Source of the DNA: a bacterium
GTDB taxonomy: Bacteria > Electryoneota > Electryoneia > Electryoneales > Electryoneaceae
NCBI GenBank assembly: GCA_020444265.1
Contig: JAHLLH010000008.1
Span: 1 to 58,944 of the forward strand
DNA: 58,944 bases
Reading direction: 5' to 3'
The notes under the pieces: generated by a model
The model's input: only the letters and a program-made list of their open reading frames with translations
What the model was told of the DNA's origin: nothing
The model's database searches: none
Shown: piece by piece, positions 7,332 to 45,075 of the stretch
Layout of the letters: each line of letters begins with the position of its first letter
Position numbering within the stretch: the first letter of the stretch is position 1
Translations under genes and position numbers: made by a program

Positions 7332-7673
7332 GCTCCCCTCCAGGGTGCGCGTTTCCGTGCGCTTCAGTTCAAAGTTGAATGTTGTGGCGGTCATCATGTT
7401 CACCAGGTATCTCTGTTGTCTTGTTGTTGGGCTGCGTCGCCTGTTCTGTGCAGAGCTGTATGCGAAGCGTGTGCCAGTTTCGATGCGTCGTACTCTCGAC
7501 GATGTTTAATCGTTGAAAATATGGAAAATAAGAGAGGTGCGAGAAGGAATCGTCCTTCTCGATAGGTCAATGTGACACCGTTGTTGGCGAGGAACAGGCG
7601 GGCCAAGCTGTGGTTTGTTTGCCACAGGTCCTAGAGTGGAAGCATGCTACAAGGGGTGGCCATCTGTTGCACA
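7332..7673. other. Intergenic region without recognised gene
   Basis: About 340 bp between the tandem envelope genes and the peroxiredoxin terminator. A 68-codon minus-strand reading frame (7400-7606) has no ribosome binding site and no recognisable features and is not called. The promoter of the envelope pair should lie here, but no clear consensus is visible. Confidence 0.5.
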
Positions 7674-19208: not shown

Positions 19209-21497
19209 CTATTTCACAATCACGGCCTTTTGTACAGCGTGGTGATAAGTGCCGTTAACTCCGTGCAGATCAACCACGACGAAGTACAGGCCGGTGGCCC
19301 AGGTGCGGCCATCCAAGACCAGGCTGCTGCGTCCGGGATTCTTCTGGCCGAGGGAAAGGTGCTGCACCTCACGACCGAGGATGTCGATAACCCGGACGGT
19401 TACCTCTGCTGCGACGGGTAAGCCGATTTGCAGCGTCGAGGTCGGGTTGAAGGGGTTGGGGTAGAGTGGAGCAACCTCGTAGTTCTGTGGTAGACCAGAG
19501 TCGGTTAGATCTCCAGCACTGGTGTTGGTTCCTGCAGTTACGGCTAGCAACGAGGACCAGCTGCTGATATCTCCTTCTTCATCGATCGAACGTACCATGT
19601 ACCAGAAATCCGTCGGCTCGGTCAAATCTTCTTTCACGACCGTCAGGAAGGTGTCTTCTACCGCTTCCGCAATCATCTCCTGTGTCTCAAAGCCGACCAC
19701 CGGGCTGATGTCGTCCACGTAGAAGCCTTCCTCACTCACATAGGTGTCCGTGATGTAGGCAAAGCGGAATTGTAGAGATTGCCCAGCGTACTCATCCAAT
19801 GGGAATCGTGCTTCGATCCAGTCGTTCTGAGGACCTGTGATGCCATTGCCCTGGTTTGCACCATTGGGGTTGGCATTGGTGGTGATACTCCCCTCGAGAT
19901 TGACATATTCGCCACCATTCACCCTCGCTTGCACATAAGCGTAATCGTAGTCATCCTCAATCACAAAACGTGTGTTGAACGACAGGGTGTCGCCTTCTGC
20001 GATGGTAATCGGATAGGTCGCTGTCAGGGTGTTCGTTACCGAGTTTTCGTTGCCGGAGTAGTATGCGTACGAGCCGCCGTAGCTTCCACGACTGAAGCCA
20101 TCAAAATCCCAGATGTTCACCGTCGCAGATTCGGCATCATCGGAATCGACAAAGCCAGTCATTTCGGCGACATCATAGTTCGCTGCCACGTTTCCAACGG
20201 TGTCAGCGACCGGGTGCCAGGTCAGGGTGAAGCTGGTCGCTGTTTCGTCGGACAGGAATAGTGTGGGAGATGGAGCGGGCATCAGGATCCACGGATTGGC
20301 ACCCATCTCGCAGAATCGGAACAGGGGCTCTTCCTGCTCGGGGATGAGTTCATCACGACGTGCCAGCGTAGGCCAGAACCCATCCCAGCCGGTACCAACC
20401 TCGAAGGTGAAGGTCCACATGTGGTAGTCTGCGCCACCTTCCTGCCAGTCCTCGGCGCCACCATTGGTTGCATAGATGATCTCCGGACCACCTACCTGCC
20501 AGCCCAGCGTTTCGTTCAGGTGAGTCCCGAGGGCGAAGTAGACATCGTAGTTCGGAGGACGTTCGTAGGTGTAACCCCAGGGAAGCAGGATCAGGTTGCT
20601 GTAAGAATGGTAGTTCAGGACTGCACTGAACTCACGCTCGTTTGTAAAGTTCATCATCGCCTGGGTTTCCGGCTCGCTGCCCGCTTCGGGACCACGATAC
20701 GTACCATCACTTCTGTCAGGCGAGGAGCCTATGTCATCGTATCCCCACATATAGGGGAAGTTTCGATTCAGGTCGACACCATAGACAAAGTCCTGGAATT
20801 CATACCTGTTTTTCCGCCACATCCCGCCACCATTCGGATCAGTCTGTTCGTTGTAGGCGTACCCATCAGGATTGACATTGAGCTGAAACCAGATTTCGCG
20901 GCTGTCGAGCAGATCGGTGGCACGTTGGTCGGTGCCATAACCTTCCAACAGCAGATCGGCGAAGTTCATCAATACGAGGGGGGTGATCACCTCGCGAGCA
21001 TGAATTGCAGAGTTGAGGAAAATTTCCGGCTCATCCTCATCGACCGCTGCATTGGCAGAAAGCTTGAACACGAGGAGCGGCCGCTCTTCATGGGTGTACC
21101 CGATGGTGTCCGGTCCGGCCACAAGCTCTGGGTAGGAGGCTGCAGTTTCCATGATCCACGCATTGATCTCGCTGAGCGTCGCATAACCGCCCATGTCATC
21201 GAGGTCGCTGTCGAGACGGTTCCGGTAGAACTCCTCAACATTCTCAATCCGGGTGTTCCAAGTGAGGCCGAGTTCGGCGAGACGTTCTTCATCACCGGGC
21301 CAGGCGACTACAGCAGCCATCCGGCCATGCCATTCAACAATGTCAAGATTGCTACTGCGAAGGTCCTGCGCGGCTATCCGGTCAGGCAGGTAGACATCGA
21401 GCAACGATGTCGCTTCTGCTACAGCGAGTGGGAGCGAAAGGACGGCAAGGATCAGGAAAAAGTGAATAAAACGGCGGGTTGAGTGCAGGCTGTGCAC
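19209..21497 (-). CDS. Secreted M14 zinc carboxypeptidase with type IX-style sorting domain
   Basis: 762 residues, start GTG with GGAGGTAG upstream. A signal peptide (about residues 1-29, FFLILAVLSLPLAVAEA) is followed by a short propeptide. The M14 domain has its zinc ligands H166 and E169 in NSAIHAREV and H297 in NYHSYSNL, the substrate-binding NPDG (209-212) and the catalytic glutamate E366 in TFTFEVG. About residues 390-670 hold an immunoglobulin/CUB-like region with an MAM-like layout (YYSGNENSVTNTL, FYVDDISPVVGF). The C-terminus has the sorting-domain signature APLYPNPFNPTSTLQIGLP followed by a Por-type beta-sandwich ending in VIVK. It probably digests proteins or peptides outside the cell or on its surface. 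Confidence 0.93.
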   Translation of the reverse strand: MHSLHSTRRFIHFFLILAVLSLPLAVAEATSLLDVYLPDRIAAQDLRSSNLDIVEWHGRMAAVVAWPGDEERLAELGLTWNTRIENVEEFYRNRLDSDLDDMGGYATLSEINAWIMETAASYPELVAGPDTIGYTHEERPLLVFKLSANAAVDEDEPEIFLNSAIHAREVITPLVLMNFADLLLEGYGTDQRATDLLDSREIWFQLNVNPDGYAYNEQTDPNGGGMWRKNRYEFQDFVYGVDLNRNFPYMWGYDDIGSSPDRSDGTYRGPEAGSEPETQAMMNFTNEREFSAVLNYHSYSNLILLPWGYTYERPPNYDVYFALGTHLNETLGWQVGGPEIIYATNGGAEDWQEGGADYHMWTFTFEVGTGWDGFWPTLARRDELIPEQEEPLFRFCEMGANPWILMPAPSPTLFLSDETATSFTLTWHPVADTVGNVAANYDVAEMTGFVDSDDAESATVNIWDFDGFSRGSYGGSYAYYSGNENSVTNTLTATYPITIAEGDTLSFNTRFVIEDDYDYAYVQARVNGGEYVNLEGSITTNANPNGANQGNGITGPQNDWIEARFPLDEYAGQSLQFRFAYITDTYVSEEGFYVDDISPVVGFETQEMIAEAVEDTFLTVVKEDLTEPTDFWYMVRSIDEEGDISSWSSLLAVTAGTNTSAGDLTDSGLPQNYEVAPLYPNPFNPTSTLQIGLPVAAEVTVRVIDILGREVQHLSLGQKNPGRSSLVLDGRTWATGLYFVVVDLHGVNGTYHHAVQKAVIVK

Positions 21498-25285: not shown

Positions 25286-25942
25286 CTAGTCGTTTCGTGG
25301 ATCCGCATTCATTTTTGCCAGAAGCAACGAGACCTGTTTTCTGGTTAACACTCGGTAGTGCGGCTGATAGTTTTGCTGGTAAGTATCCGAATGGTGGATG
25401 GCGGGCCATTCGTTCGCTTTTAAGAGTTCGGTGAGTTCGTCAAATCGCGCCAAATCGAGTCCGTGCAGAGAGTAGTTGGCAACAGAAAGCCGTAACTCAT
25501 CCCAGACCTTCGGTAGCCGGGCTGGGTCGGGTTGAGACTTCGCCGACTCGATCTGCGCGTGCGCCAGTGCCTCGATTGATCCTCCTGCCGCGATGTAGGG
25601 AGCGAGGTAGAGACGGCTGTAGTGTGGACCAATCTCTTCCACCATCCGGTCCGACTGCGTGGAATCCACCGTCATCCCCTCTACTTCTTTACGCAACCAC
25701 GTCTCCACAGGACCATAGGACATGCCATAGTGCCCCGGCCCGCGTGTCGCCTGGAAGAGTAGTTTGTAGGCATCCTCCTCGTTCATCATGGGGTATCGAT
25801 CCATTTGCTCACGAACCAAATCGAGGTAGGGGGTGAGATCCTGTGTGGTTGGTGGATCAGATTCAGCAGTCGCCGGACGGGGTGTCAGGCCGAGAGAAAG
25901 AACGAATAACAGGGCCCCCACCCGAACGAATCGACCGATCAC
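25286..25942 (-). CDS. Exported protein of unknown function coupled to the PorV-like gene
   Basis: 218 residues starting with GTG that overlaps the stop of the PorV-like gene (GTGA), so it is translationally coupled. A signal peptide is present (VRVGALLFVLSLGLTPRPATA). The mature protein is mainly helical with Tyr- and Arg-rich patterns, for example EEDAYKLLFQATRGPGHYGM and PHYSRLYLAPYIAAGGS. I have seen similar hypothetical proteins in Bacteroidetes-like genomes but cannot name a family or function. Periplasmic location is inferred. Its partner suggests an envelope role. Confidence 0.75.
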   Translation of the reverse strand: MIGRFVRVGALLFVLSLGLTPRPATAESDPPTTQDLTPYLDLVREQMDRYPMMNEEDAYKLLFQATRGPGHYGMSYGPVETWLRKEVEGMTVDSTQSDRMVEEIGPHYSRLYLAPYIAAGGSIEALAHAQIESAKSQPDPARLPKVWDELRLSVANYSLHGLDLARFDELTELLKANEWPAIHHSDTYQQNYQPHYRVLTRKQVSLLLAKMNADPRND

Positions 25943-26910
25943 CGCACCGCACCCCAGTGGTAGCCGACGCTGATACGGTGGGTTGCGCCGAGGTCATCGT
26001 GCCCGACAAACGCGTAGTCGAGGCCGATGGGCCCAATGGCGAGTCCTGCACCGTAGCTCAGACGGTCATCATCCATACCGCCGCGCAGCGAAACGATGTT
26101 CCGAATCGTCCACTCGAGCCCGACATGGGGGATGAAGGCATTCTCGGTGCCGAGGGCTTCGCTGCGGAATTCTGCTTCGACCACAGGGGTTGCAATCGCA
26201 TTGAACCGTTCGACCGGGAACGAGAATGCGGCACCAGCACGCAGGGTCGGCTTGATAGCCTCCTGACGACCACCTTCCCAGGTCAGCAGGGTGGTGATCG
26301 CGTCACGCAACTGTGCACCCAGGACCAACCCGCCGAATCGTTTCGTATATCCGAGGTCGAAACCAAGCCCGAAACCATCTGTGGTGTCGAGCCGTTTGTA
26401 GAGCAGCTTCGCCGCGCCGCCGATTGTGCCGTAGGGACGGTCCTGGCTGTAGGCGAGCAGGAAGGCATATTCGGAAGCGCTCGTCCAGTTGGCGACGTAG
26501 GGACGGTTTTGTGGGTTAATGCCGCTGCTGCGGTCACGGAGTGCGGTCACCGGGATGTCATCGACTCCCTGACGAACCAGCCCGAAGCCGATGGCGTGGT
26601 CCCCGTTGTTCCGTGCCCAAGCGGCATGATCCACTTTGACAGCGGACTCAAAACGGTCCGCGTGCATCAATGATACACCCTGCCCCGCGAGAAAGCCGAT
26701 GCGCGATGGATTTCCCAACACAGCGGAGGGACCGTCCGAAATGGCGACTCCCGCTCCGCCCAGTGCGAGCAGGCGTGCGTTGGATTGGCCGGTGATGAAA
26801 TCTCCGGCATACTTGGCATCCCAGTCAAATTCGGCGTACGACGGCAGCGCCAGGCTCAGCAACGCGAAGCCGGCGACAAGAGTGATTATGCGGCGGTGCA
26901 GTGTCATCAT
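25939..26910 (-). CDS. PorV/PorQ-like (UPF0164) outer-membrane barrel protein
   Basis: 323 residues with a signal peptide (ITLVAGFALLSLALPSYA). The N-terminal signature SNARLLALGGAGVAISDGPS, then AVLGNPSRIGF, is the hallmark of the UPF0164/PorV family (G-G-A-x-x-A, x-NPA-like turn). The remainder is a 14-strand-type barrel with Gly/aromatic periodicity. In Bacteroidetes, PorV/PorQ proteins shuttle or anchor type IX secretion cargo, which fits the sorting-domain proteins at 19.2 and 42.8 kb. Start ATG-ATG with GGGAG just before. The function here is inferred from the family. Confidence 0.85.
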   Translation of the reverse strand: MMTLHRRIITLVAGFALLSLALPSYAEFDWDAKYAGDFITGQSNARLLALGGAGVAISDGPSAVLGNPSRIGFLAGQGVSLMHADRFESAVKVDHAAWARNNGDHAIGFGLVRQGVDDIPVTALRDRSSGINPQNRPYVANWTSASEYAFLLAYSQDRPYGTIGGAAKLLYKRLDTTDGFGLGFDLGYTKRFGGLVLGAQLRDAITTLLTWEGGRQEAIKPTLRAGAAFSFPVERFNAIATPVVEAEFRSEALGTENAFIPHVGLEWTIRNIVSLRGGMDDDRLSYGAGLAIGPIGLDYAFVGHDDLGATHRISVGYHWGAVR

Positions 26911-28741: not shown

Positions 28742-28793
28742 GAGTGTACCTGTCACCATCTGCGGCACGTTCGATTTGGTGACAGGTACACTC
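28742..28793. repeat. Inverted repeat with GTGACA core
   Basis: GAGTGTACCTGTCACC (28742-28757) pairs with GGTGACAGGTACACTC (28778-28793) across a 20-nt centre. It lies between the serine hydrolase start and the end of the first permease gene, with GTGTACC again at 28860. It probably belongs to the GTGAC-ended repeat set at 3000, 19144 and 56670. Confidence 0.7.
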
Positions 28794-28880: not shown

Positions 28881-30101
28881 TTACTCATACCGCAAGCTGA
28901 CAATAGGATCCATGCGGCTCGCTTTCCAAGCAGGCCAGGTTCCGAAAACCAGGCCGATAAAGCTGCAGAAGAGGATACCGACCATCACACTCCACGCCGG
29001 TACCGCGACTGGTAAGTCGGCTGCCTTGCCTAGCAGGAAGGCGCCTGCAACTCCTACCACTACGCCAATGAACGCACCGATTTCTGTCAGGATGACCGCT
29101 TCAACGAGGAACTGACTCATGATCGAACGCCGTCTTGCGCCGAGTGCTTTACGCACCCCGATTTCACGGGTTCGTTCGGTCACCGAGACCAGCATGATGT
29201 TCATAATCCCCACACCAGCGACAATCAGGGCGATGGAAGCGATCCCAAAGGCGGCGATTCGGATCCACTTGGTCATGTCATTGAAGCTGTCCACGAGCTG
29301 GTTCGAATGGAAGATACCGAAATTGTTCTTTTCACCCGGTTTTACGTTCCGTGCGCCACGCAATGCAGCAACCGTCTGGTCAATGCAATCCTGGATTTTC
29401 GAAGGGTCGCTGGTCTGCACGGTGATAAACCAGCTTCGGCGATCGCCCCACCAGCGGGTAAAGGTGGTGATGGGCACGACACAGTGGTAGTCGGAATTGT
29501 CGTTGAACATGCTGCCACGTCCCTCGAACACACCGACCACTTGTGCACGGTTACCATTGATGGTCACATATTCCCCGACTGGATTTCGGAAGGGGAAGAG
29601 TTTGTTGGCGACACCTTGCGCGAGTACGACCACGGGTCTCGCAAAATGAACATCCTGGTCGGTGAGAAATCGTCCCCGTTCGACCATGTAGCCGTTGTTT
29701 GGAGCGAAGCCGGGAACTCCACCAGCGACGACGATATTCGGGTTGGTTGCCTCGTCCTTGTACTTGACCGTGATGACATATTTCCACACCTCCGGTGCCA
29801 CAATCTGGGCGAGGGGGACATTTTCCTCAATGGCACGGACTTCACGCATCCCGATCTTAGGCGGCGATTCCCGTCGCCAGTGGTTGCCATTGAAATCCCG
29901 CTCAAACTGCTGCACCTGGAAAACGCCAGCGGAGAGGATCGACATCTCCTTTTCGACCATCTGTTGCAGGCCGCGGATCACCGACATCGTAGCGATGATG
30001 GTCATGACGCCGATGATCACCCCGAGCAGGGTGAGTGAGCTGCGAAGCTTTTGCGAGACAATGCTGTCCAGCGCAATGCGGAAGGATTCTATGAGGTTCA
30101 T
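28881..30101 (-). CDS. MacB-type ABC transporter permease, type A (copy 2)
   Basis: 406 residues with the MacB/LolC layout: an N-terminal membrane helix (LRSSLTLLGVIIGVMTIIATM), a large periplasmic MacB core domain, and three C-terminal FtsX helices starting FGIASIALIVAGVGIMNIML, with ERTREIGVRKALGA before helix 3. No ATPase domain. It is more similar to the permease at 31880 (same start MN-ES-R and the same C-terminal box) than to its direct neighbour at 30282. Together with that neighbour it forms the second A/B pair. It is the last gene of the export operon on the minus strand. Confidence 0.93.
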   Translation of the reverse strand: MNLIESFRIALDSIVSQKLRSSLTLLGVIIGVMTIIATMSVIRGLQQMVEKEMSILSAGVFQVQQFERDFNGNHWRRESPPKIGMREVRAIEENVPLAQIVAPEVWKYVITVKYKDEATNPNIVVAGGVPGFAPNNGYMVERGRFLTDQDVHFARPVVVLAQGVANKLFPFRNPVGEYVTINGNRAQVVGVFEGRGSMFNDNSDYHCVVPITTFTRWWGDRRSWFITVQTSDPSKIQDCIDQTVAALRGARNVKPGEKNNFGIFHSNQLVDSFNDMTKWIRIAAFGIASIALIVAGVGIMNIMLVSVTERTREIGVRKALGARRRSIMSQFLVEAVILTEIGAFIGVVVGVAGAFLLGKAADLPVAVPAWSVMVGILFCSFIGLVFGTWPAWKASRMDPIVSLRYE

Positions 30102-30134
30102 GGCGTACTCACCTTACCGGTTGTGTCTTTTTGT

Positions 30135-30188
30135 TGCGTCCGGTCTCCGGACCTGACGCATCTTTCGCTCAGGTCGGGAGACCGGACA
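30135..30188. repeat. Bipartite palindromic repeat (BIME-like unit 2)
   Basis: TGCGTCCGGTC/GACCTGACGCA (30135-30160, one mismatch), spacer, then CAGGTC-GGGA-GACCGG (30170-30185). Between permease genes. Confidence 0.75.
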
Positions 30189-30205
30189 GAACAGTCCTAC
30201 ATCGT

Positions 30206-30262
30206 TGTGTCAGGTCCTCAGACCTGACACATGATTCCGTCAGATCTGAGGATGTGACGGAA
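30206..30262. repeat. Bipartite palindromic repeat (BIME-like unit 3)
   Basis: TGTGTCAGGTC/GACCTGACACA (30206-30231, perfect) followed by TTCCGTCAGATC/GATGTGACGGAA (30235-30262, one mismatch). Variable outer bases are complementary within each hairpin. Confidence 0.85.
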
Positions 30263-30281
30263 CACTCGTTCTGGAACATCT

Positions 30282-31508
30282 TTACTCCGACCTGAGCGCG
30301 ACGATAGGATCCAACCGACTCGCTTTTGCGGCCGGGAAAATCCCGAATAACAAGCCGACGGTGGCCGAAAAACCGACCGCCGCGAGTGCAAGCCAGAGTG
30401 GTAGAGAAACCGGCAACTGCGATTTGATCGCGGCACCCGCAGCGGCGGCCAGTCCAAGTCCCAGCAGCCCCCCGGCACTGCAAATCAGCATCGCTTCGAC
30501 CAGGAATTGCCACAAGATGTCTGTCGTCTTGGCACCGACTGCCTTGCGCATCCCGATCTCCCAAGTACGTTCGGTGACCGAAACGAGCATGATGTTCATG
30601 ATCCCCACTCCACCAACCAGCAGGGCAATGCCGCCAATGATCAGCCCGGCTGCGTAAATGCCAGACGTCATCCGTTTGTAGAACGACTCGAGCATCTCCT
30701 GGCGATTGATGACAAAATTGTCTTCTTCGAGGGGTTTCAGCTCACGGGCTCGCCGCATCAGGTAGTGCATTTCATCCTCGAGATCATCCACCGACACTCC
30801 TTCGGCTGCCTTCGCAACGATTTGGACACCACGACGGTGACCGTACACCTTTTCGAAGGTCGAGAGGGGGATGACGACACGTTTGTCCATTGTCTCGCCG
30901 AAGGATTCTCCCTGTTCGGTGAGGATGCCTACGACACGGAAACGGTTGTTGCCGATGCGGATATCCCGTCCCATCGGGTTGACCGAACGGAAGAGATCGT
31001 CCCGAAGGTCCGATCCAATCACACAGACTTGGCGAGCGGCGCGTTCGTCTGTGTGGCTGAAGAAACGGCCTACGTCCAGATCAAAGCCGGAGGCATCGAG
31101 ATACTCTGGCGTTGCGCCGTTGATGCGCACTCGTTCGAGGCGCTCATCACGGTACCCGACCGTGCGACGGGTCCCGGCACCAGCGGCAACAGCGTAGGCA
31201 TCCTGGCTGTGGTCACGCAGGTACTCGTAGTTCGCTGCGGTCACTTCTGGACGATTGATGTACTTCCACCAGGAACCGTCCGTAATGATCCACGGCCACC
31301 GTTCGATGTAAATGGTATTGGACCCGAGGATGGAAAGCTGGCTGGTGAACGAGGTGTTCAACCCCTGGATAATCATCAGCATCACGGTAACCGTGAGCAC
31401 ACCGATGACAATACCCAGGGTCGTCAGCAATGACCGGGTCTTGTTGGCGATCAGGGCGCGGAACGCAATGTTCAGCCCTTCTCGCAGAGTTGTCGTTGTA
31501 AACGCCAT
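30282..31508 (-). CDS. MacB-type ABC transporter permease, type B (copy 2)
   Basis: 408 residues. The N-terminal helix reads RSLLTTLGIVIGVLTVTVML, the core periplasmic domain follows, and the C-terminal FtsX part has AAGLIIGGIALLVGGVGIMN and ERTWEIGMRKAVGAKTTDIL. It resembles the permease at 33330 (ERTWEIGMRKAIGAKTSHIL) far more than the adjacent type A permeases (ERTREIGVRKALGA). Start ATG at 31508 has only a weak ribosome binding site. It likely pairs with the type A permease at 28881 as a heterodimer. The 3' end is followed by two bipartite repeats. Confidence 0.92.
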   Translation of the reverse strand: MAFTTTTLREGLNIAFRALIANKTRSLLTTLGIVIGVLTVTVMLMIIQGLNTSFTSQLSILGSNTIYIERWPWIITDGSWWKYINRPEVTAANYEYLRDHSQDAYAVAAGAGTRRTVGYRDERLERVRINGATPEYLDASGFDLDVGRFFSHTDERAARQVCVIGSDLRDDLFRSVNPMGRDIRIGNNRFRVVGILTEQGESFGETMDKRVVIPLSTFEKVYGHRRGVQIVAKAAEGVSVDDLEDEMHYLMRRARELKPLEEDNFVINRQEMLESFYKRMTSGIYAAGLIIGGIALLVGGVGIMNIMLVSVTERTWEIGMRKAVGAKTTDILWQFLVEAMLICSAGGLLGLGLAAAAGAAIKSQLPVSLPLWLALAAVGFSATVGLLFGIFPAAKASRLDPIVALRSE

Positions 31509-31648
31509 ACTGGGCTCGCGCAGGAGTTCCGGCTCCTTCTATGCGCACCTGGACCGCGATCCACACAATTGGATCTCGTCCAACAGCCCCAATCCCTATG
31601 GAGGTGAGACACTCTCACCGGATAATAGGTTACAGCTGAATCGACTGG

Positions 31649-31752
31649 CCCGACACTTTCGTGTCGGGTTTCTTCGGTGCGAAGATTGCTTCGCGTATTG
31701 CGGTTACCCAGAACGCGGTCATGGACCGCGTATACACGGGCAAGATGCCCGT
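31649..31752. repeat. String of four short hairpins between permease genes
   Basis: CCCGACAC/GTGTCGGG (31649-31668; third copy of the hairpin at 2812 and 3192), CGAAG/CTTCG (31680-31693), GCGGTC/GACCGC (31715-31729) and ACGGGC/GCCCGT (31736-31752). This fills most of the 370-bp gap between permease genes together with the bipartite unit at 31820. Confidence 0.75.
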
Positions 31753-31819
31753 ACTACAGGGTGGCCAGTGATTTTTGTCCTGGGTTTCAGTGTCCATTCG
31801 TACTGTACATCTTTCATGT

Positions 31820-31875
31820 TTCGTCGGGTCTCCTGACCCGACGAATATTCGGTCAGGTCGGGAGACCTGACCGAA
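31820..31875. repeat. Bipartite palindromic repeat (BIME-like unit 4)
   Basis: TTCGTCGGGTC/GACCCGACGAA (31820-31845), TATTC-like spacer, TTCGGTCAGGTC/GACCTGACCGAA (31848-31875). Both hairpins perfect; loops TCCT and GGGA mark opposite orientation. Confidence 0.9.
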
Positions 31876-31879
31876 CAAC

Positions 31880-33106
31880 TTACTCGTATCTCAGCGCTTC
31901 GATCGGATCCAAGCGGCTTGCTCTCCATGCAGGCCAGGTTCCGAAACCTAAGCCAATGGCGGAGGAGAAGAGGATGCCGACGATCACACTCCAAAGCGGC
32001 ACTGAAATCGGCAGGTTGGCCGCGCCACCGAGCAGGTAAGCGGACCCAATACCGACCCCGACCCCGATCAGCGCCCCGATTTCCGTCAGGATGACCGCTT
32101 CGACAAGGAACTGTGCCAGGATCGAAGTACGTTTCGCGCCGAGTGCTTTGCGGACTCCGATTTCACGGGTTCGTTCGGTGACCGACACCAGCATGATGTT
32201 CATGATGCCGACCCCGGCGACGATTAGCGCGATGGAGGCAATGCCAAAGGCGGCGATCTTGATCCATTTGGTCATCTCGTTGAAGCTGTTCACAAGCTGG
32301 TTCGAGTGCCAGATGGCGAAGTTGTTCTCGTCGCCCGGTTTCAGGCCGCGCGCGGCACGCATGGCGATGGTCGTCTGCTCGATCGCTTTGTCCATCTTGG
32401 TCGGGTCTTTCGCCTGGACCGTGATCGCGTAAGATCGTTCCTTTCCGAACCAGCGCTCGAAGGTGGTGATGGGGATCAACGCCACATGGTCCGCATTCTG
32501 GTTGAGCATGGACCCTTTTTCCTGCAGGACACCGATCACCTGGGCACGTTGCCCGTTGAGCGTCACGTGCTGCCCCACCGGGTCACGGTAGGGGAAGAGA
32601 CGTCTCGCGATGGCGGCGCCAATCACGACGACCGAGCGGGCGTATTGCAAATCCTGTTCGGTGAGGTTGCGTCCGTTCTCGATACTATGACCGTTGTTGG
32701 CAACAGTCGCGGTCACTCCACCGAAGAGAGTGTTGTTAGGTGGCGTGGCATCGTTCTTGTATTTAATCTGCACGCCCCATTTATGAATCTCCGGGGCGAC
32801 CATGCTGACCTGGGGTACATTCTGCTGGATGGCTCGGACCTCTTCCATGCCGATGTGGGGACGGTATTCCCGTTTCCTGCCGCCGACATGCATCCCGACC
32901 TGAACGTCATATCGCTGGACCTGGAAAACGCCTGTCGACAACTCGGACATCTCGTTTTCCATCATCTTGTTAAGGCCACGGATCACTGACATGGTGGCGA
33001 TGATGGTCATCACCCCGATGACCACACCGAGCAGGGTCAGCGAGGAACGAAGTTTGTTCCCCGCGATACTTGCCACCGACACCCTGTAGGATTCGAGCAT
33101 GTTCAT
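31880..33106 (-). CDS. MacB-type ABC transporter permease, type A (copy 1)
   Basis: 408 residues from the ATG at 33106, whose N-terminus MNMLESYRVSVASIAGNKLR aligns with MNLIESFRIALDSIVSQKLR of the type A permease at 28881; the longer reading from 33151 is not needed. Same MacB core and C-terminal FtsX helices (AAFGIASIALIVAGVGIMNI, ERTREIGVRKALGA). It is the A member of the first A/B pair. It ends just before a bipartite repeat. The periplasmic domain should contact the HlyD-type adaptor encoded upstream. Confidence 0.93.
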   Translation of the reverse strand: MNMLESYRVSVASIAGNKLRSSLTLLGVVIGVMTIIATMSVIRGLNKMMENEMSELSTGVFQVQRYDVQVGMHVGGRKREYRPHIGMEEVRAIQQNVPQVSMVAPEIHKWGVQIKYKNDATPPNNTLFGGVTATVANNGHSIENGRNLTEQDLQYARSVVVIGAAIARRLFPYRDPVGQHVTLNGQRAQVIGVLQEKGSMLNQNADHVALIPITTFERWFGKERSYAITVQAKDPTKMDKAIEQTTIAMRAARGLKPGDENNFAIWHSNQLVNSFNEMTKWIKIAAFGIASIALIVAGVGIMNIMLVSVTERTREIGVRKALGAKRTSILAQFLVEAVILTEIGALIGVGVGIGSAYLLGGAANLPISVPLWSVIVGILFSSAIGLGFGTWPAWRASRLDPIEALRYE

Positions 33107-33124
33107 CGAGCTGGTTCCCTTTGT

Positions 33125-33184
33125 TGCGTCAGACGCCCACGTCTGACGCAATTCCCGTTGTGTCAGATCCGTAGATCTGACACA
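33125..33184. repeat. Bipartite palindromic repeat (BIME-like unit 5)
   Basis: TGCGTCAGAC/GTCTGACGCA (33125-33150) and TGTGTCAGATC/GATCTGACACA (33159-33184), both perfect. The inner hexamer is CAGATC rather than CAGGTC in the second hairpin, changed on both arms. Confidence 0.88.
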
Positions 33185-33208
33185 GAATTCGCGCCATTGG
33201 CACGATCA

Positions 33209-33310
33209 TCTGTCAGGTCACCGCTGCGCTAAGGACCTGACAGAACAACAATTCTTCCGTCAGACTCAGGGGTCTGACGGAACAACAGTCAGGTCAGGAG
33301 ACCTGGCTGA
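33209..33310. repeat. Further palindromic repeats of the same family
   Basis: TCTGTCAGGTC/GACCTGACAGA with a 14-nt loop (33209-33244), then the bipartite unit TTCCGTCAGAC/GTCTGACGGAA (33255-33282) and CAGGTC-AGGA-GACCTG (about 33290-33305). They occupy the gap between two permease genes. Confidence 0.8.
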
Positions 33311-33329
33311 ACGGTTCTTCGGAACTCTT

Positions 33330-34565
33330 TTACTGCGCCCTGAGCGCGCTGATGGGGTCGAGACGAGCGGCTTTTGCCGCAGGGAAGATGCCGAAGACAA
33401 TCCCGACTCCTGCCGAAAAGAGGACCGCCATCCCCGCCAACCAGAGCGGGAGAGAGGTCGGCAAGACATTGTTGATCGCAAGGCTGCCGAGGTAGGCAAG
33501 CCCCAGGCCGACAACACCTCCTAACACGCAGATCATCATCGCTTCGACCAGGAATTGCCAGAGGATGTGGCTGGTTTTCGCGCCAATCGCTTTTCTCATC
33601 CCGATTTCCCAGGTCCGTTCGGTCACCGAGACCAGCATGATGTTCATAATGCCGATCCCACCAACCAGCAGACTGATCCCGCCAATAATCAACCCAGCGG
33701 CATAAACTCCGCCGGTCATGGTTTTGTATAAGTTCTGCAAGGCCGCCTGACGATTGATCGAGAAGTTGTCATCATCCTGCGGTTTGAGATTTTTGGAGGT
33801 ACGCATGATGCCGGTCAGTTCATCGACCAGGGCATCGATCTCCACTCCATCTTTCGCCTTGACAGCGATTTGCAGGGAACGGTTTCGTCCAAAGGTGTTG
33901 AGCAGGGTGAACGTCGGAATGATGATGGTATTGTCTCGGCTCATACCGAAGGTCGAGCCCTGCTTTTCGAGGATACCCACCACACGGAACTGGTAATGCC
34001 CAACACGGATATCCCGTCCAATCGGATCAAGCGGGCCGAAAAGCTCGTTTTGAACGTCCTGACCGATTACACAAATACGCCGTGAACTGCGGTTGTCCGA
34101 GTCATTGATGAACCGTCCGAATTCCGGCACCGTACTGCTCACATCAATGAAGGAAGGAGTCGCACCCATGATCTGCACACCTGTGAGGGTCTTGTCACGG
34201 TACGCAATGGGGCGTGAGGTGCCGGTCAACGGGGCAACTGCGGCTGAAAGGTCCGACCGGTTGAGGATATCCTGGTAGTTCTCTATGGTGACTTTCGGAC
34301 GATTGATGTACTTCCACCACTCGTCATCCCAAATCCAGGGGTACTGATCCACATAAACCGTGTTGCTGCCGAGGAAGGAGATTTGCTTGGCAAACGAAGC
34401 GTTCAACCCCTGAATGATCGTCAGCATCAGGGTCACTGTCACCACCCCGATGATAATGCCGAGGGTGGTCAGCGCCGCACGGGTCTTGTTCGCCAACAAT
34501 GCTCGGTTGGCGATGACAAACCCTTCTGCGAGGGCATGGGAGATGGTGGTCAACTTCTTGGCCAT
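33330..34565 (-). CDS. MacB-type ABC transporter permease, type B (copy 1)
   Basis: 411 residues. N-terminal helix ANKTRAALTTLGIIIGVVTV, MacB core domain, and C-terminal AAGLIIGGISLLVGGIGIMN with ERTWEIGMRKAIGAKTSHIL. The ATG at 34565 has AAGGA upstream. First permease after the ATPase gene. It forms the first A/B pair with the gene at 31880, while the type B copy at 30282 pairs with 28881. The ATPase gene is 139 bp upstream, across a hairpin (ACGGGGTC/GACCCCGT, 34620-34638). Confidence 0.92.
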   Translation of the reverse strand: MAKKLTTISHALAEGFVIANRALLANKTRAALTTLGIIIGVVTVTLMLTIIQGLNASFAKQISFLGSNTVYVDQYPWIWDDEWWKYINRPKVTIENYQDILNRSDLSAAVAPLTGTSRPIAYRDKTLTGVQIMGATPSFIDVSSTVPEFGRFINDSDNRSSRRICVIGQDVQNELFGPLDPIGRDIRVGHYQFRVVGILEKQGSTFGMSRDNTIIIPTFTLLNTFGRNRSLQIAVKAKDGVEIDALVDELTGIMRTSKNLKPQDDDNFSINRQAALQNLYKTMTGGVYAAGLIIGGISLLVGGIGIMNIMLVSVTERTWEIGMRKAIGAKTSHILWQFLVEAMMICVLGGVVGLGLAYLGSLAINNVLPTSLPLWLAGMAVLFSAGVGIVFGIFPAAKAARLDPISALRAQ

Positions 34566-34704: not shown

Positions 34705-35451
34705 CTACGAAGCCGTTTCTTCATCCGCAGGTTTTCCTGCAAACATGCCGTTTTCACCCGTACGCGGTACCTGGGTCTCATCCGAGGAGATTTTGCCGTC
34801 CAACAGACGTACGACACGATGGGAATAAGCAGCGATATCCTCTTCATGGGTCACAAGGATGATCGTATTCCCGCCCTCATAAAGCTGGCCAAACAGCTCC
34901 ATGATCTCGTAGCTGGTGCGGCTGTCCAGGTTACCCGTCGGTTCGTCCGCCAGCAGCAGGCTGGGATTATTCACCAGCGCACGCGCGACCGCGACCCTCT
35001 GCCTTTGACCGCCGGAGAGCTCGTTGGGCTTGTGGTGCATCCGGTCGGCGAGGCCAACCTTTTCAAGCGCAGATTCAACCTGTTCCTTGCGCTGAGAGCG
35101 AGAGATGCCGGCATAAATCAGCGGCAGCTCGACATTGTGAAAGGCATCAGCACGCGGGAGCAGGTTAAAGGTCTGGAATACAAAGCCAATCCTGCGGTTG
35201 CGGATGTCCGCGAGCTCGTTGTCGGTCATCTGGTCGACACGTTCCCCAGCCAGACGGTAGATACCGTCAGTCGGTGTGTCAAGGCAGCCGATAATGTTCA
35301 TCATTGTCGATTTGCCCGATCCCGATGGTCCCATGATGGCGACGTACTCGCCCTCGCGGATATCCAGATCAACCCCAGCTAGAGCCGGGACCTTGATCTG
35401 CCCGATCTCGTAAACCTTATGCAGGTTTTTCAGATCAATTATACTACTCAT
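34705..35451 (-). CDS. ABC transporter ATPase (MacB/LolD type)
   Basis: 248 residues with Walker [14 protein letters not shown]-loop [16 protein letters not shown], signature [17 protein letters not shown], Walker [14 protein letters not shown] and the H-loop VTHEEDIA. It belongs to the MacB/LolD/FtsE family, which drives mechanotransmission rather than substrate passage. It is the only ATPase near four permeases, so it probably serves both permease pairs. The ATG overlaps the stop of the adaptor gene by one base (TAATG). Confidence 0.96.
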
Positions 35452-36749
35452 TACGACTCCCCGTCACTGCTTTCACCTTCGGCCATCGTGCTGTCGGCTT
35501 CTTCACCCGGCATATCAGGCTTGGAGTAGGATACGATGGTTCCGCTGTGCAGTTCACGTGACAGCAAACGGAACGGCCCGGTGACAATGACATCACCCTC
35601 GTGGATTCCCTCGAGGATCTCGAAGTGGGTGTCCGAGTAAATGCCGAGCTTCACCTGCTTTGCCCAGACTGTATCACCCTGCGCGATGAAGACAACTTCC
35701 ACGGGCTCTTCCTTATCGGTACCCATGTTGCCACTCTTCATCTCGCCTTCATTGTCGTCCTTGTCGCTGTTGCGAGCCTGTTCGGCGCGACGGTTTTCAT
35801 CGCTCATCGTCCGCACCGCGACTGCTTCCTGGGGCAAAACGAGGGTGTTGCTGCGAGTCTCGGTTACCACCTCAACGGTGGCACTCATCCCGGGACGCAG
35901 TTCAACCACCTGGTCGGTGACCGCGACGGTGACACTGAAGTTGGTGACCTCTTCGGAGGAGCCACGGTTCCGGATCACGCCTGAATGGGCGATCTCGGTT
36001 ACCATACCATTGAAGCTGGTGTCCGGCAGGGCGAAGACTTCGATCTTGACGGGGTCACCGATCGCAATCAGGACCACGTCATTCTCGTTAACCTCGACAT
36101 CGACCTCCATCTGGTCCAGCTTCGACACCACCATGATGATGTCCTGGCTGAAGGTGGCACCAATCGCCATCTCGCCCACTTCTTTATTCAGCTGGGTGAC
36201 GGTTCCGGAGATGGGGGAGTAAATCCGTGTTTTGGAAAGCTGGTCCTCACCCTGAGTCACGTTGGCTCGCATCCGGTCCACATCGGCTTCAAGCCGTTTA
36301 ACCGACGCCATTGCGGTTTCCAGGTCGGCATCGCTGGAGAGACCGTTTTCATGGAGCTCACGGGTACGCTTCAAGCGTGACTTCGCCTCGTCCAGGCTGG
36401 CGACCCCGCTGGCGAGCGAGAAACGCATCTGCTCGAGCTGGGCGGCGTAGTTCTCGTCCTCAATTCGGACCAGCAACTGATCCTTCTGGACCATGTCGCC
36501 CTCTTCGGCACCGAGATAGAGGATCCGGCCGCTGACATTGGCACTGATCTTCACCTCTTCCTTCGGCTGAATTTTGCCGGAGGCGGTAACAGTCTGGGTC
36601 AGACTGTCAAGCTGGGCGACGGTTACATCGACATCCACTCCCTTGGGACCACGTTTGGTCAGGAGATTGGCGGCTACCAGGCCGGCAATAATCACGACGA
36701 CACCGATGATGATCCAGAGCTTTTTACCATTCTTTTTCTTGGGACTCAC
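35451..36749 (-). CDS. HlyD/MacA-type periplasmic adaptor
   Basis: 432 residues, start GTG with GAGGAGGT upstream. One N-terminal membrane anchor ([20 protein letters not shown]) is followed by a barrel-sandwich hybrid ([20 protein letters not shown] and [20 protein letters not shown]), an alpha hairpin (about residues 110-180) and beta-barrel/membrane-proximal domains. An acidic, low-complexity insert ([19 protein letters not shown]) near residue 330 is unusual. It links the inner-membrane transporter to TolC. It lies between the TolC and ATPase genes. Confidence 0.93.
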
Positions 36750-36771: not shown

Positions 36772-38136
36772 CTACCTGTTCGCGGCGTCCAACGATGTTC
36801 CCAGGTCGCGTTCCAAGGTTGCCTGGGTGGTGTAAAAATCAAGCACCTTGGTCAAATAATCCTGCTCAGCCGTAATGAAGGTTACCTGGGCGCTGCGCAG
36901 GTTGAGCTGGTCCGAAGCACCGACCCGGTACCGTTCCTGCTCAAGTTGAAGTTGACGGCGGGCCAGGTCGCGATTCTTGTTCGAAACCTGTATCTGCTGG
37001 TACAAGACTTCGAGATTCCGCCATTCGGAACGAAGGGTGGTCTGAATCTGTTGACTCTGCTGGTGACTGTCCCACATCGACTTGCGGGCCTGCACCACGG
37101 CATTCTGACGGTTGTACTCGCGTGAGAAACCGTCAAACAGGGTCCAGCTCATGTTGAAGCTAAGACGGCTACCCGGAGTGTCGGGGGAGAGCAGGAACTT
37201 GTTTGCCGCACCCGGAACTGTCTCCGAACGCCCAAAACCGTAACTCATGCTTACCGTCGGGTAATAGTTGGCAGTCTGCCGTTTGACAGCAAGTTTGTTG
37301 ATCTGAACCGTATTGCGCAGGGCGAGGTAGTCTGGTCTTGATTCCAGTGCAACGCGGACCAATGTATCCGCATTCAATTCGGGCAGAACCGGGCTGAACT
37401 CATCCACCACGGGGAAACGGCTGTCCAAGTTTAATCCGGCGGCCAGGTTAAGCGCTTCTTGCGCGTTCTCAACACCCTGTTCGGCTTGAAGCACAAGGTT
37501 CTGCTGCGTGCCGAGGTCAATTTCCGCCTGCATCACGTCCAACTCAATCACATCACCAGTCTTGAACCGGGCGTTCGCGAGTCGATGAGCTTCCCTGCGC
37601 TGTTCGAGTACCTCTTTTTGCACCTCGAGATAACGATGGGAGGCGACGAGGTTGTAATAGTAACTCTTGACATCTGAGACAATCATGTCGCGTGTGCGCT
37701 GGGTATTGAGGTAGGTGTTCTCGACGGTAAGTTTGGCCTGCTTCATGCCATGCAGCCGCGAGAATCCCTGGAAAATCGACTCACTAACACCAAAGGAGAG
37801 GCTGCTTGAGCTGCTCGTCTGGTCTTCAACGCCAATCGGTACACCACCAACGTATTGGGTGCCTTTTGTGGTATTGTTGCTGAAGCTTCCGTCTGCAGAA
37901 ATTCGCGGAAGGAAGGAGCCGATTGCGGCAAGTTTCATCACGCCGATGACACGTTCGTCCTCAACGGCCTTCTGGTAATTGGCCTGATTTTGCAGCGCGA
38001 ACTCGATCAGCTCGTCCACCGCCATTGGGGTGTCCTGCTGAATCAAGGGCGGTTCAATCAGTTCCTCGCTGAACGCCTGCAACGGCAGGAGCACGATGAT
38101 AAGGACGAACATGGCAAAGAATGAAAGCTGCTTCAT
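36772..38136 (-). CDS. TolC family outer-membrane efflux protein
   Basis: 454 residues with a signal peptide (MKQLSFFAMFVLIIVLLPLQ, cleaved after AFS). Two homologous OEP halves are recognisable, including ANARFKTGDVIELDVMQAEI and QERYRVGASDQLNLRSAQV, the typical 'Y/F-x-x-G-x-x-x-x-L-x-V-x-x-A' repeat. It forms the outer-membrane channel and periplasmic tunnel of the exporter encoded downstream. First gene of the export operon; the adaptor starts 22 bp after the stop. ATG 38136 has AGAGG upstream. Confidence 0.95.
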   Translation of the reverse strand: MKQLSFFAMFVLIIVLLPLQAFSEELIEPPLIQQDTPMAVDELIEFALQNQANYQKAVEDERVIGVMKLAAIGSFLPRISADGSFSNNTTKGTQYVGGVPIGVEDQTSSSSSLSFGVSESIFQGFSRLHGMKQAKLTVENTYLNTQRTRDMIVSDVKSYYYNLVASHRYLEVQKEVLEQRREAHRLANARFKTGDVIELDVMQAEIDLGTQQNLVLQAEQGVENAQEALNLAAGLNLDSRFPVVDEFSPVLPELNADTLVRVALESRPDYLALRNTVQINKLAVKRQTANYYPTVSMSYGFGRSETVPGAANKFLLSPDTPGSRLSFNMSWTLFDGFSREYNRQNAVVQARKSMWDSHQQSQQIQTTLRSEWRNLEVLYQQIQVSNKNRDLARRQLQLEQERYRVGASDQLNLRSAQVTFITAEQDYLTKVLDFYTTQATLERDLGTSLDAANR

Positions 38137-38194: not shown

Positions 38195-38953
38195 TTACAC
38201 CCAGGCCTGACCAGTCAAGAGTGATGTCAGCAGGCCAAGACCGAGATAGCAGACAAGACCCCAGGCGATTCCCTTGCCCTGCGATACCTTTGCCACCATC
38301 GCCAGCCCGATTCCTGCGACAATTCCTTCCCAGATGCTGAAGACATTGAAGACTGAGAGAATCTTGTGGGCAGTCGAGGTCGGGTCACCCTTTGTAATGA
38401 TCCCAAGACCCAGCTGCGCACCGTACATGTCACCGGTGGCATTCATCAGGATGCCGCCGACAATCATCCCGATCGCACCAATAACCGAGGCGTACCAGAG
38501 GACCGCCCAATACTGGCCGAACTTGGCGTTGCCACCGAAGATGACGTTTCCACCCAATAGAAAGAGACCGGCGAAGAGCAGCTTGACCAAGAAGGTTGCA
38601 ATCACTGGGTTGACAATCATGAATACCTGCATCATGCCGCCACTCTGCCGCTGCATGAACTGGTCTGCCTGTTCCTGGGTGAGCTGGCCAGTCTGGACCA
38701 TTTCATCAAAGCGTTCTCGGGTCTGATCCATTGCAAACTCGGAGACCACATCGCCCGCGATCAGGCTGAAAATGCCTACTGCGACGATGAAAACCAGTAG
38801 CGGCACCCACCAGCTACCCTTCTGCGCAACACCGCGCATGGCAGCAGCGGGGTCGGTGATGACTGCAACTAATCTGGACCAGGGGTTGACGACTGCGGAT
38901 TCTTCGGATGATTCTTCTGTGGTTGGCATCTGCTGATCATTCTCGGTGACCAT
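38195..38953 (-). CDS. YIP1 family membrane protein
   Basis: 252 residues from the ATG at 38953, chosen because GGAGGGAGC lies directly upstream; the longer GTG reading from 39061 runs through a polypurine stretch and is unlikely. A polar N-terminus (NDQQMPTTEESSEESAVVNP) precedes WSRLVAVITDPAAAMRGVAQ, the usual start of the Yip1 domain, and five membrane segments (PLLVFIVAVGIFSLIAGDVV and others) follow. Bacterial YIP1 proteins have no established function; some are linked to export or trafficking-like processes. It precedes the TolC gene by 58 bp on the same strand, so it may be part of the export operon. Confidence 0.82.
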   Translation of the reverse strand: MVTENDQQMPTTEESSEESAVVNPWSRLVAVITDPAAAMRGVAQKGSWWVPLLVFIVAVGIFSLIAGDVVSEFAMDQTRERFDEMVQTGQLTQEQADQFMQRQSGGMMQVFMIVNPVIATFLVKLLFAGLFLLGGNVIFGGNAKFGQYWAVLWYASVIGAIGMIVGGILMNATGDMYGAQLGLGIITKGDPTSTAHKILSVFNVFSIWEGIVAGIGLAMVAKVSQGKGIAWGLVCYLGLGLLTSLLTGQAWV

Positions 38954-42843: not shown

Positions 42844-45075
42844 ATGAAATATTCCTTAGCCGTCCTCACTCTTACAGCGGTTTTTCTTTTCTCCCTGCAG
42901 ATCATGCCTGTCTATGCAACCAACCCGGTTCTGGTCACAAGCCGACCTGTTGACTCCCGGCATTCGATCATGAACGAAGATGAAGGGGTGACAGAGATAT
43001 CCTCTCTCTTTTCCGCATGGTCGTACTGCGGAGACCTGGTGGTGGATGACAGCATCGCGTATGTCGCGACGGGGGTGACGGGTGTGGAAATCATTGACCT
43101 GCACGATCCCTTGCATCCAACAATCCTGGGTACATGCCGCCTCGATGGGAACCCTGCCCGGTTGGTAAAACAGGATACGCTCCTTCTGGTCCATGAATAT
43201 GGCCGGATGCTTTGGGTGGTGAATGTTGCTGATCCTTCAAATCCTTATGAAATCGGCCACTTTGATGGCAGTAGCTATTATGACTTGGGAAGAGTCTCTG
43301 TAGAGGGTGATTTGGCGGCAGTCGCTGGGAACCGTTATGGTGTTCGCATCCTCGATATCAGCGACCCCGCTCACCCCGATCAGATCGGCTTCCATCTTGT
43401 TTCAATTGGGGCTATCCGTGACGTCGACCTGCAGGATTCCCTCCTTGTGGTTGCGGCAGATGATGAGGGTGTGTGGACGATGGATGTTTCGGACCCAACG
43501 GACCCTGAAGTCATCGGCACCTGGGAGTTGACGGGAACCTACTATGACTATTTCAAGGCGGTTGTTCGTTTCGGGGATATAGTCTATGCTGGAAATGAAT
43601 CGACGGGATTGTATCTGCTGGATATTTCGGATCCTGCGAATATTGTCGAAATCGATCATCTCTTTGATGAACTGCCCATATCTCATCTTCGTCTCTTCGG
43701 TGATCGACTACTTGTTGAAACATCAGCCTACCAACAGGATGATGGGCTCCTCTGGTTCGACGTCAGTAACCCACTAGCACCTGTCCAGCTTGGAGTCCTG
43801 CTCGATCCACAGGTCTACCGTCGATATGGAAAAGGTGTACTGATGGGGGACTATGTTGTTACGGCTGGTGCACCGGATAACCTGGAAATCTATGACATTA
43901 CTGACCCTGCCAACCCTCTGCTTACCTCGCGTTTGATCCGGTCAGAACGATTCAATCATATCGCACTCGCGGGAGATCTGGCAGTTGTCGGAAATCGTAT
44001 CGTGGATGTCTCAGTTCCATCCGACCCCGTTGCCTTGATCCCCCCTGCTGAAGGGTACGAATTCAAGGAACGAGCTATTCAGGACAACTACCTCTATTTC
44101 GTGAACGAGGATGATGGCATCCACTGCTTCGATATCTCCAATCCCACGTCACCGATATTTACAAGCCAAAGCTTGCCGGGGACCGATCTTCGTCAGATCA
44201 TCCTCTCCGGTAACCAGGCATTTGCCGCCTCGTATGCACAAGGATTATTCAAGCTGGATGCTTCCGATCCAGCAGTTCTGGTTCCCCAGGATACTTTGAA
44301 TGATGTTTACGTTTACAGCATGTGCTGGCGTGATGGCCTGCTATACGTTGCGAGTTCCAGGAGAATCAGGATCATCCAGGCGAGTGAGGGGCAACCGCTG
44401 TCACTACTCAACACAGTGGATATCGAAGCCTATGATACCTATGGTATGGCTGTGGAAGACACTCTCCTCTGTTTGACCTATGCCCATGGGATGATGTCAT
44501 TTTCCATCGCAGACCCGGTTTCGCCCCGATACCTGGGTGAATATGTGGAAGAGAATGTTTCGCCAGCGGATTTGAAAATGGAGAACGGGCACGCGTATCT
44601 CTCAAGCCTCAGCGGGGGAATCAGAGTTCTTGATCTGACGGATCCTGCCCAGCCTGTCCTCGCAGGCAGCTACGAGTCCGAGTGGGAGACCTATGGGATT
44701 GAAGTGCGTGATGGCCTCCTCTACGTGGCGAACAAGTACTCGTTCCGGATACTCGATGCCAATCCTGCTCTATGGACTCCCGAAACGGGACGAACTCACG
44801 AGCAGCCGACGGCCTTAAGTATCAGTCAAGTCTACCCCAATCCCTTTAATCCGACAACCACCATGACTGTCCGTGTCCCGGAGATTCAGACAGTACGTTT
44901 GTCTGTGTACAACCTGCTAGGACAGGAGGTGGCGCAGCTTCACAGAGGGGTGTTGCGGGTCGGGGATCACCGTTTCACTTTGCAGGCAGAATCATTGGCA
45001 AGTGGGGTCTATATCGCCGTTCTAAGCTCGCAGGGAGAGTGGATGGCAGCGAGACGGTTGGTACTGATGAAATAG
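42844..45075 (+). CDS. Secreted LVIVD-repeat beta-propeller with type IX-style sorting domain
   Basis: 743 residues with a signal peptide (MKYSLAVLTLTAVFLFSLQI, cleaved after VYA). Many repeats of the type 'x-A-Y-V-A-x-G-x-x-G-V-x-I-I-D-(x)-x-D-P-x-x-P' (for example VAGNRYGVRILDISDPAHPD) identify the LVIVD family, expected to form one or two propellers. The C-terminus has VYPNPFNPTTTMTVRVPE and the Por-type sandwich ending in RRLVLMK. It is probably secreted by a type IX-like system; the biochemical role is unknown. ATG 42844 has no obvious ribosome binding site. A divergent promoter region with the dnaJ-like gene is 172 bp. Confidence 0.9.
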   Translation: MKYSLAVLTLTAVFLFSLQIMPVYATNPVLVTSRPVDSRHSIMNEDEGVTEISSLFSAWSYCGDLVVDDSIAYVATGVTGVEIIDLHDPLHPTILGTCRLDGNPARLVKQDTLLLVHEYGRMLWVVNVADPSNPYEIGHFDGSSYYDLGRVSVEGDLAAVAGNRYGVRILDISDPAHPDQIGFHLVSIGAIRDVDLQDSLLVVAADDEGVWTMDVSDPTDPEVIGTWELTGTYYDYFKAVVRFGDIVYAGNESTGLYLLDISDPANIVEIDHLFDELPISHLRLFGDRLLVETSAYQQDDGLLWFDVSNPLAPVQLGVLLDPQVYRRYGKGVLMGDYVVTAGAPDNLEIYDITDPANPLLTSRLIRSERFNHIALAGDLAVVGNRIVDVSVPSDPVALIPPAEGYEFKERAIQDNYLYFVNEDDGIHCFDISNPTSPIFTSQSLPGTDLRQIILSGNQAFAASYAQGLFKLDASDPAVLVPQDTLNDVYVYSMCWRDGLLYVASSRRIRIIQASEGQPLSLLNTVDIEAYDTYGMAVEDTLLCLTYAHGMMSFSIADPVSPRYLGEYVEENVSPADLKMENGHAYLSSLSGGIRVLDLTDPAQPVLAGSYESEWETYGIEVRDGLLYVANKYSFRILDANPALWTPETGRTHEQPTALSISQVYPNPFNPTTTMTVRVPEIQTVRLSVYNLLGQEVAQLHRGVLRVGDHRFTLQAESLASGVYIAVLSSQGEWMAARRLVLMK

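Follow-up and report, generated by a model that had tools for sequence, protein, structure and literature searches.

The closest described systems to the locus discussed here are MacAB-TolC and its split relatives, which join a permease fold with a periplasmic core domain to a MacA-type adaptor and a TolC-family channel. The locus has the same parts and lies in a 58,944-nucleotide stretch from an Electryoneota bacterium (GenBank assembly GCA_020444265.1, contig JAHLLH010000008.1, positions 1 to 58,944 of the forward strand), hereafter the window, where a single ATP-binding cassette (ABC) ATPase gene is followed by four permease genes of two classes in the order B1, A1, B2, A2. MacB is one fused homodimeric chain according to the available part of PMC5985334, whereas here we find two co-inherited permease classes and two pairs per ATPase. 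Judging from gene content and comparative sequence analysis, we consider it likely that the product of the operon is a MacB-type (type VII) exporter linked to TolC whose membrane part is a B/A heterodimer, with B1A1 and B2A2 sharing the ATPase, adaptor and TolC.

Separate ATPase and permease genes beside a TolC-like channel are already known from AatP/AatC and CexP/CexC (PMC8277102, available part). LolCDE, too, joins a separate ATPase to two distinct four-helix permeases; the accessible section of PMC5985334 describes LolCE as a heterodimer of individual units, BceB and YbbP as fused forms, and MacB and FtsX as homodimers, and the part of a Chemical Reviews article available to us (PMC8277102) names LolCDE as the heterodimer and gives split MacB-like systems one permease. 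YknWXYZ of Bacillus resembles the locus in having a Yip1-family protein, an adaptor, a separate ATPase and a MacB-like permease, and YknW modulates assembly of YknXYZ there (PMC4887032, seen in part), but it has a single permease and no TolC. In the ADOP duplicated permeases (TIGR03434) two MacB-like units also belong together, in one fused chain of ~800 aa, whereas the window permeases are single units of ~410 aa scoring 128-136 bits against the 622 of that model. One ATPase serving several permease pairs is described for type I ABC importers of the MsmK kind in the opening of the abstract of PMC7658222. Those systems are importers of another fold, whereas the locus here would be a type VII exporter with its pairs in one gene cluster. 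Our literature search, with subscription papers mostly outside its coverage, did not find multi-pair arrays or comparable heterodimers in tripartite systems. Type VII ABC systems have been viewed as one permease dimer per ATPase, and a TolC-linked heterodimer with several pairs would be a new modular layout.

Two permease classes behind one ATPase

The operon is read from the minus strand in the following order, with all four permease open reading frames (ORFs) intact:

38195..38953, minus strand: Yip1-domain membrane protein, YknW-like accessory (Yip1 PF04893, 53 bits, above the cut-off)
36772..38136, minus strand: TolC-family outer membrane factor (PF02321, 185 bits)
35451..36749, minus strand: periplasmic adaptor (membrane fusion protein) of MacA/RND_mfp type (TIGR01730, 166 bits, cut-off 94.9; HlyD_D23)
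34705..35451, minus strand: the operon's single ATPase, MacB-N/LolD type (PF00005, 119 bits)
33330-34565, minus strand: permease B1, 411 aa (MacB_PCD and FtsX)
31880-33106, minus strand: permease A1, 408 aa with an ATG start; its longest ORF begins at TTG 33151 (MacB_PCD and FtsX)
30282-31508, minus strand: permease B2, 408 aa (MacB_PCD and FtsX)
28881-30101, minus strand: permease A2, 406 aa (MacB_PCD and FtsX)

All four permeases match MacB_PCD (PF12704) and FtsX (PF02687) far above the Pfam cut-offs, and the adaptor and TolC-family channel that define a tripartite ABC exporter are encoded within the operon itself. Against PRK10535, the equivalog for MacAB-TolC proper, scores are 172-264 bits where 966 are required, and ATPase and permease are separate genes. 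The top NCBIfam models for the ATPase are the MacB N-part, DarD and LolD, every one under its cut-off, and what we take to be its Walker A, signature and Walker B motifs read as intact. The ORF of the Yip1 gene extends to 39061 via a GTG start, with a probable ATG start near 38953, and its product scores 80.5 bits with the NCBIfam model YknW_fam, under the cut-off of 110. A Yip1 relative heads the operon in 4/6 relatives of the same family, the contigs of the other two (G002 and G004) ending before that point.

An earlier sequence-only reading of this DNA had proposed that the four permeases alternate as B-A-B-A with each copy closest to its non-adjacent counterpart, and this is borne out: global identity is 65.2% between A1 and A2 and 59.5% between B1 and B2, and only 34.6-37.2% in the four A-B comparisons. 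Copies only 60-65% identical are too diverged to stem from recent copying or from an artefact of assembly. In a tree of 44 rows, chosen from the clades of a larger tree and excluding L086, which fell in both clades, A and B form two deep clades of 22 rows each with support 100/100, spanning the window's phylum and others; neighbouring copies are not sisters. The motifs quoted as class marks are all present, but ERTREIGVRKALGA distinguishes the classes in part only, as 7/14 of its positions carry the same residue at >=90% in both classes (38 A and 39 B proteins). We take this stretch to be a feature of the MacB/FtsX family at large, presumably its coupling region. The class-specific site is the residue following ERT, which is R at >=90% in A, whereas B has mostly W, followed by R or K. 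Across the same alignment, 43 columns hold the same residue at >=90% in both classes and 11 are strongly class-specific (2 + 5 + 4).

AlphaFold2 monomer models of A1 (pLDDT, the predicted local distance difference test score, 80.9; pTM, the predicted template modelling score, 0.57) and B1 (pLDDT 83.3, pTM 0.63) are of moderate confidence. The predicted monomers fit the MacB fold, with MacB 5gko as top Foldseek match (E 7.3e-25 for A1 and 5.0e-27 for B1), followed among the leading matches by MacB 5lil and 5nik and by 5xu1, a non-canonical ABC transporter from Streptococcus pneumoniae. Two permease classes and a LolD-like ATPase would also suit a LolCDE-like lipoprotein extractor, and Foldseek matches LolC and LolE too, but these matches are weaker than those to MacB. 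To our knowledge, Lol systems have neither TolC nor adaptor, whereas this operon carries both. The lolCE model gives the permeases 25-50 bits against a cut-off of 362, and the ATPase reaches 230 of 308 bits with LolD (TIGR02211), so both fall short. We regard a Lol-type function as highly improbable.

The sequence-only reading had also stated that one ATPase, one adaptor and one TolC are available, which is true of the operon and not of the cell, since the genome holds 49 MacB_PCD matches including these four. These matches lie on contigs C1, C2, C4, C6, C9-C12 and C15-C19 of the window's genome (G000), many in fused double permeases of ~800 aa that are ADOP-like. We considered whether ADOP could be a fused B-A pair. 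NCBIfam alignments put A on the C-terminal half and B on the N-terminal half, and profiles of A and B failed to sort the halves of the genome's own ADOP-like proteins; this candidate was rejected. A further locus of the same genome (L192, G000:C15:35734-39478) encodes three consecutive single-unit permeases, very remote from A and B, with an ATPase match after them.

Co-inheritance of A and B and multi-pair arrays

Among 39 genomes of the phylum, B is found in 30 and A is also present in 28 of these, counting a fragment in G035 and an A truncated at a contig end in G032. Completeness is 79% for G010 and 56% for G038, the two genomes that have B but no A. The remaining 9/39, all of family f2, lack B and lack A too, and none of the 39 carries A without B. 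The pair is adjacent in the order B-A in 21/30 B-bearing genomes, with a gap of ~1.1 kb in two genomes of family f8, and the ATPase directly precedes B in 20 of them; in the remaining one (G004) the contig consists of the pair alone.

Family f6 (six genomes, all of different genera) differs in that B closes a Yip1-TolC-adaptor-ATPase-B operon (L221-L226) while A stands alone at a separate locus (L068-L073) in 6/6. All parts of the operon are visible in 5/6, the sixth contig beginning within the adaptor, and no ATPase or adaptor match occurs in the ~12-17 kb around the lone A. Since a permease depends on an ATPase for its power, retention of this A beside an ATPase-linked B argues for an A/B heterodimer assembled in trans. 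The expectation that an A/B pair would be unusual needs dividing: long co-inheritance, together with genomes in which A is unlinked and yet kept, favours a heterodimer, while the B-A pair as such is the usual layout of the phylum and multi-pair arrays recur elsewhere.

The first of these arrays, L082 and L117 (both below), came from a scan of named genomes that took in 80 loci among the matches listed and is not a census. A Bacteroidota contig (L082) reads TolC-adaptor-ATPase-B-A-B-A-B-A, and its permeases, like those of other phyla, sit inside the window's two clades. Its first and third blocks are sisters with the second outside, in B and A alike (98/91 and 100/96). We searched and read the loci of 13 genomes of the family to which this contig belongs: nine have at least two pairs and four have one, with three pairs in G042 and G061; the arrays of G061 and G053 are cut at a contig end. 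The array head is reached on 10/13 contigs, each with exactly one ATPase match. Both B and A are readable in 23 of the 24 blocks, and the well-supported pair lineages hold identical blocks in the B and A trees (middle 5/5, last 8/8); the other 10 readable blocks fall outside both lineages in both trees and form no supported clade. The combinations found are first, middle and last; first and middle; first and last; first alone; and middle alone. B and A are inherited as blocks. In one of these arrays (L251, G058) an in-frame TAG at 7347-7349 breaks the first B gene, with its A partner and pair 2 open.

Gemmatimonadota show the same architecture with a different pair of classes. Here we read 13 loci, namely L117 and 12 picked by eye among the matches listed (two matches a few kb apart on one contig), a choice that gives no prevalence: seven have two pairs, five have three and one has four, each with one ATPase match. 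In L261 the ATPase sits where the contig ends, with neither adaptor nor TolC seen. Pairs are not always contiguous, with gaps of several kb in, for instance, L262. In a quick tree, built without bootstrap, the 33 permeases at odd positions form one clade (Shimodaira-Hasegawa-like approximate likelihood ratio test, SH-aLRT, 99) and the 33 at even positions another (100), and the best match in other loci has the same parity for 66/66; by a stricter test, in which every same-parity match must exceed every other-parity one, 38/66 agree. The four-pair locus (L267, G112) places eight alternating permeases behind one ATPase match. In genome G041, two loci of class A/B read adaptor-B-A with no adjacent ATPase match, an arrangement also compatible with sharing of an ATPase in trans. 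An ATPase is present at a third locus of G041, where the permeases do not clearly belong to classes A and B.

Could A and B instead each homodimerise, giving up to four MacB-like exporters on one ATPase, adaptor and TolC? Several points weigh for this and against the heterodimer. MacB and FtsX are homodimers (PMC5985334, in the part available), the accessible portion of PMC13078400 treats LolF and BBJ27, whose ATPase is separate, as homodimers, and operons with a single permease, an adaptor and a separate ATPase occur in the window's own phylum (L234-L240). Co-inheritance fits two homodimers needed for one task as well, the lone A of f6 could borrow another ATPase, and pairing is not universal, as L085 reads B-A-A and L089 has two sister permeases. 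Also counting against our reading, and detailed in the next section, are the rarity of the second pair, the longer B2 branch and the nature of the spacers. Homodimers would nevertheless predict commoner loss or amplification of single classes, and among the loci read the B-A-A of L085 is such a case. The company that A keeps with B in 28/30 B-bearing genomes, the absence of genomes having A without B, the six lone A genes of f6 with no ATPase match nearby and the alternation of the arrays all speak against this alternative, which we consider unlikely.

A single adaptor and a single TolC for all pairs, in arrays reaching four pairs, might also suggest that both pairs act jointly in a larger assembly, for example with two ABC units per adaptor ring. 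The closest relatives manage with one pair, however, and in solved MacAB-TolC structures there is one permease dimer per adaptor ring. A joint assembly therefore seems very doubtful, and we return to alternative B/A heterodimers on one chassis as the preferred reading.

Age and state of pair 2

The sequence-only reading had the two-gene module duplicated as a block. The block structure holds, but a simple tandem duplication does not. In a concatenated B+A tree of 27 rows, pair 1 clusters with G002, G005 and G006, which represent two other genera (97/97), and pair 2 falls outside this group, at an open fork within the family. Forcing the two pairs to be sisters is 27 log units worse (approximately unbiased test, p-AU 0.009). 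For single genes the same constraint gives p-AU 0.037 with A and 0.072, not significant, with B. A recent tandem duplication in situ is rejected by the concatenated tree and test, even though B alone misses 0.05. The tree of ATPase, adaptor and TolC also places the window beside G002, G005 and G006 (94/96), in agreement with pair 1, which identifies pair 1 as the resident; pair 2 is older or foreign. A clade of all family residents excluding pair 2 is not rejected (p-AU 0.35). Pair 2 would thus derive either from a duplication before the family's genera split, followed by loss in 6/6 others, or from transfer out of an unsampled relative. Its GC content is ordinary, with GC at third codon positions (GC3) of 0.69 and 0.68, like its neighbours. 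A PorV-like gene lies downstream of the single pair of G002, as it does downstream of the window's pair 2, and is absent from the stretches of other relatives, which hints at the same locus in G002 and the window.

The permease genes are parted by palindrome-rich spacers:

33107..33329: B1-A1 spacer, 223 bp, with palindromes and three terminator-like matches on the minus strand
31509..31879: spacer between pair 1 and pair 2, 371 bp, with a copy of the genome-wide palindrome at 31852-31871
30102..30281: B2-A2 spacer, 180 bp, with a palindrome copy at 30209-30228

The palindrome, GTCAGGTC-N4-GACCTGAC (<=2 mismatches), is an intergenic repeat with 158 sites in the genome against 2 for a reversed control, and the genome has three matches to Y1_Tnp (PF01797). 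Together these look like a system of repetitive extragenic palindromes and their associated tyrosine transposase (REP/RAYT) that may have swelled this operon's spacers. Three of 10 terminator-like matches lie in the B1-A1 gap and one in the ATPase-B1 gap, although the total is at shuffle level, with no excess in the whole region (10 versus 8.6 +/- 3.0 in shuffles); promoter-like matches there are likewise not in excess (5 versus 4.7).

Such repeats filling the spacers, the presence of two pairs in only 1/30 B-bearing genomes of the phylum, namely the window's own, and a B2 branch of 0.40 against 0.17 for B1 in the A/B clade tree, which specialisation and relaxed constraint both fit, would be compatible with pair 2 being a redundant or decaying duplicate without a function of its own, whether retained for dosage or as a relic. 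Both of its ORFs are intact, however, at 60-65% identity to their partners and with the family's conserved motifs kept; its GC3 is neighbour-like, it diverged before pair 1 parted from two other genera, and in the Bacteroidota family multi-pair arrays are retained in 9/13 genomes. A redundant pair 2 is in our judgement somewhat less probable still than homodimers.

Proposed mechanism and neighbouring genes

If B and A form a heterodimer, two ATPase subunits would bind the coupling regions, one on B and one on A, and ATP binding and hydrolysis would power a mechanotransmission stroke of both periplasmic core domains, pushing periplasmic substrate via the adaptor into TolC. This scheme draws on MacB and Lol, in part from the available portion of PMC5985334 and otherwise from general knowledge. 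Pairing would be between partners of the same block, and two pairs behind one ATPase would act as two alternative pumps, with pair 1 as the conserved resident and pair 2 as an older, diverged module that may broaden or alter the substrate range.

We see roughly even chances that the locus exemplifies a widespread and hitherto undescribed type VII layout, in which one ATPase-adaptor-TolC chassis drives two to four interchangeable heterodimeric cassettes. Whole blocks would be gained, lost or passed on, would have multiplied independently in several phyla, and cassette swaps would change the substrate range. The two to four pairs arranged alike in some other bacteria suggest pumps that may change the substrate-handling half and keep the same motor. 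The layout makes it testable which part of a MacB-type pump determines substrate choice, as arrays occurring in nature, which combine a single motor with two to four permease modules, amount to swap experiments already set up. Family f6, with its unlinked A gene, likewise provides a test of whether heterodimerisation is obligate.

Beyond the operon, a perfect 17-bp inverted repeat (28742-28793) with 18 nt between its arms separates A2 from the next gene downstream, whose product has a beta-lactamase-family domain. The window also encodes a PorV/PorQ-like protein (25939-26910) that scores under the family cut-offs. Por_Secre_tail domains, barely above the Pfam cut-off, occur in two further proteins (19209-21497 and 42844-45075). 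Together these genes point to a putative type IX secretion system.

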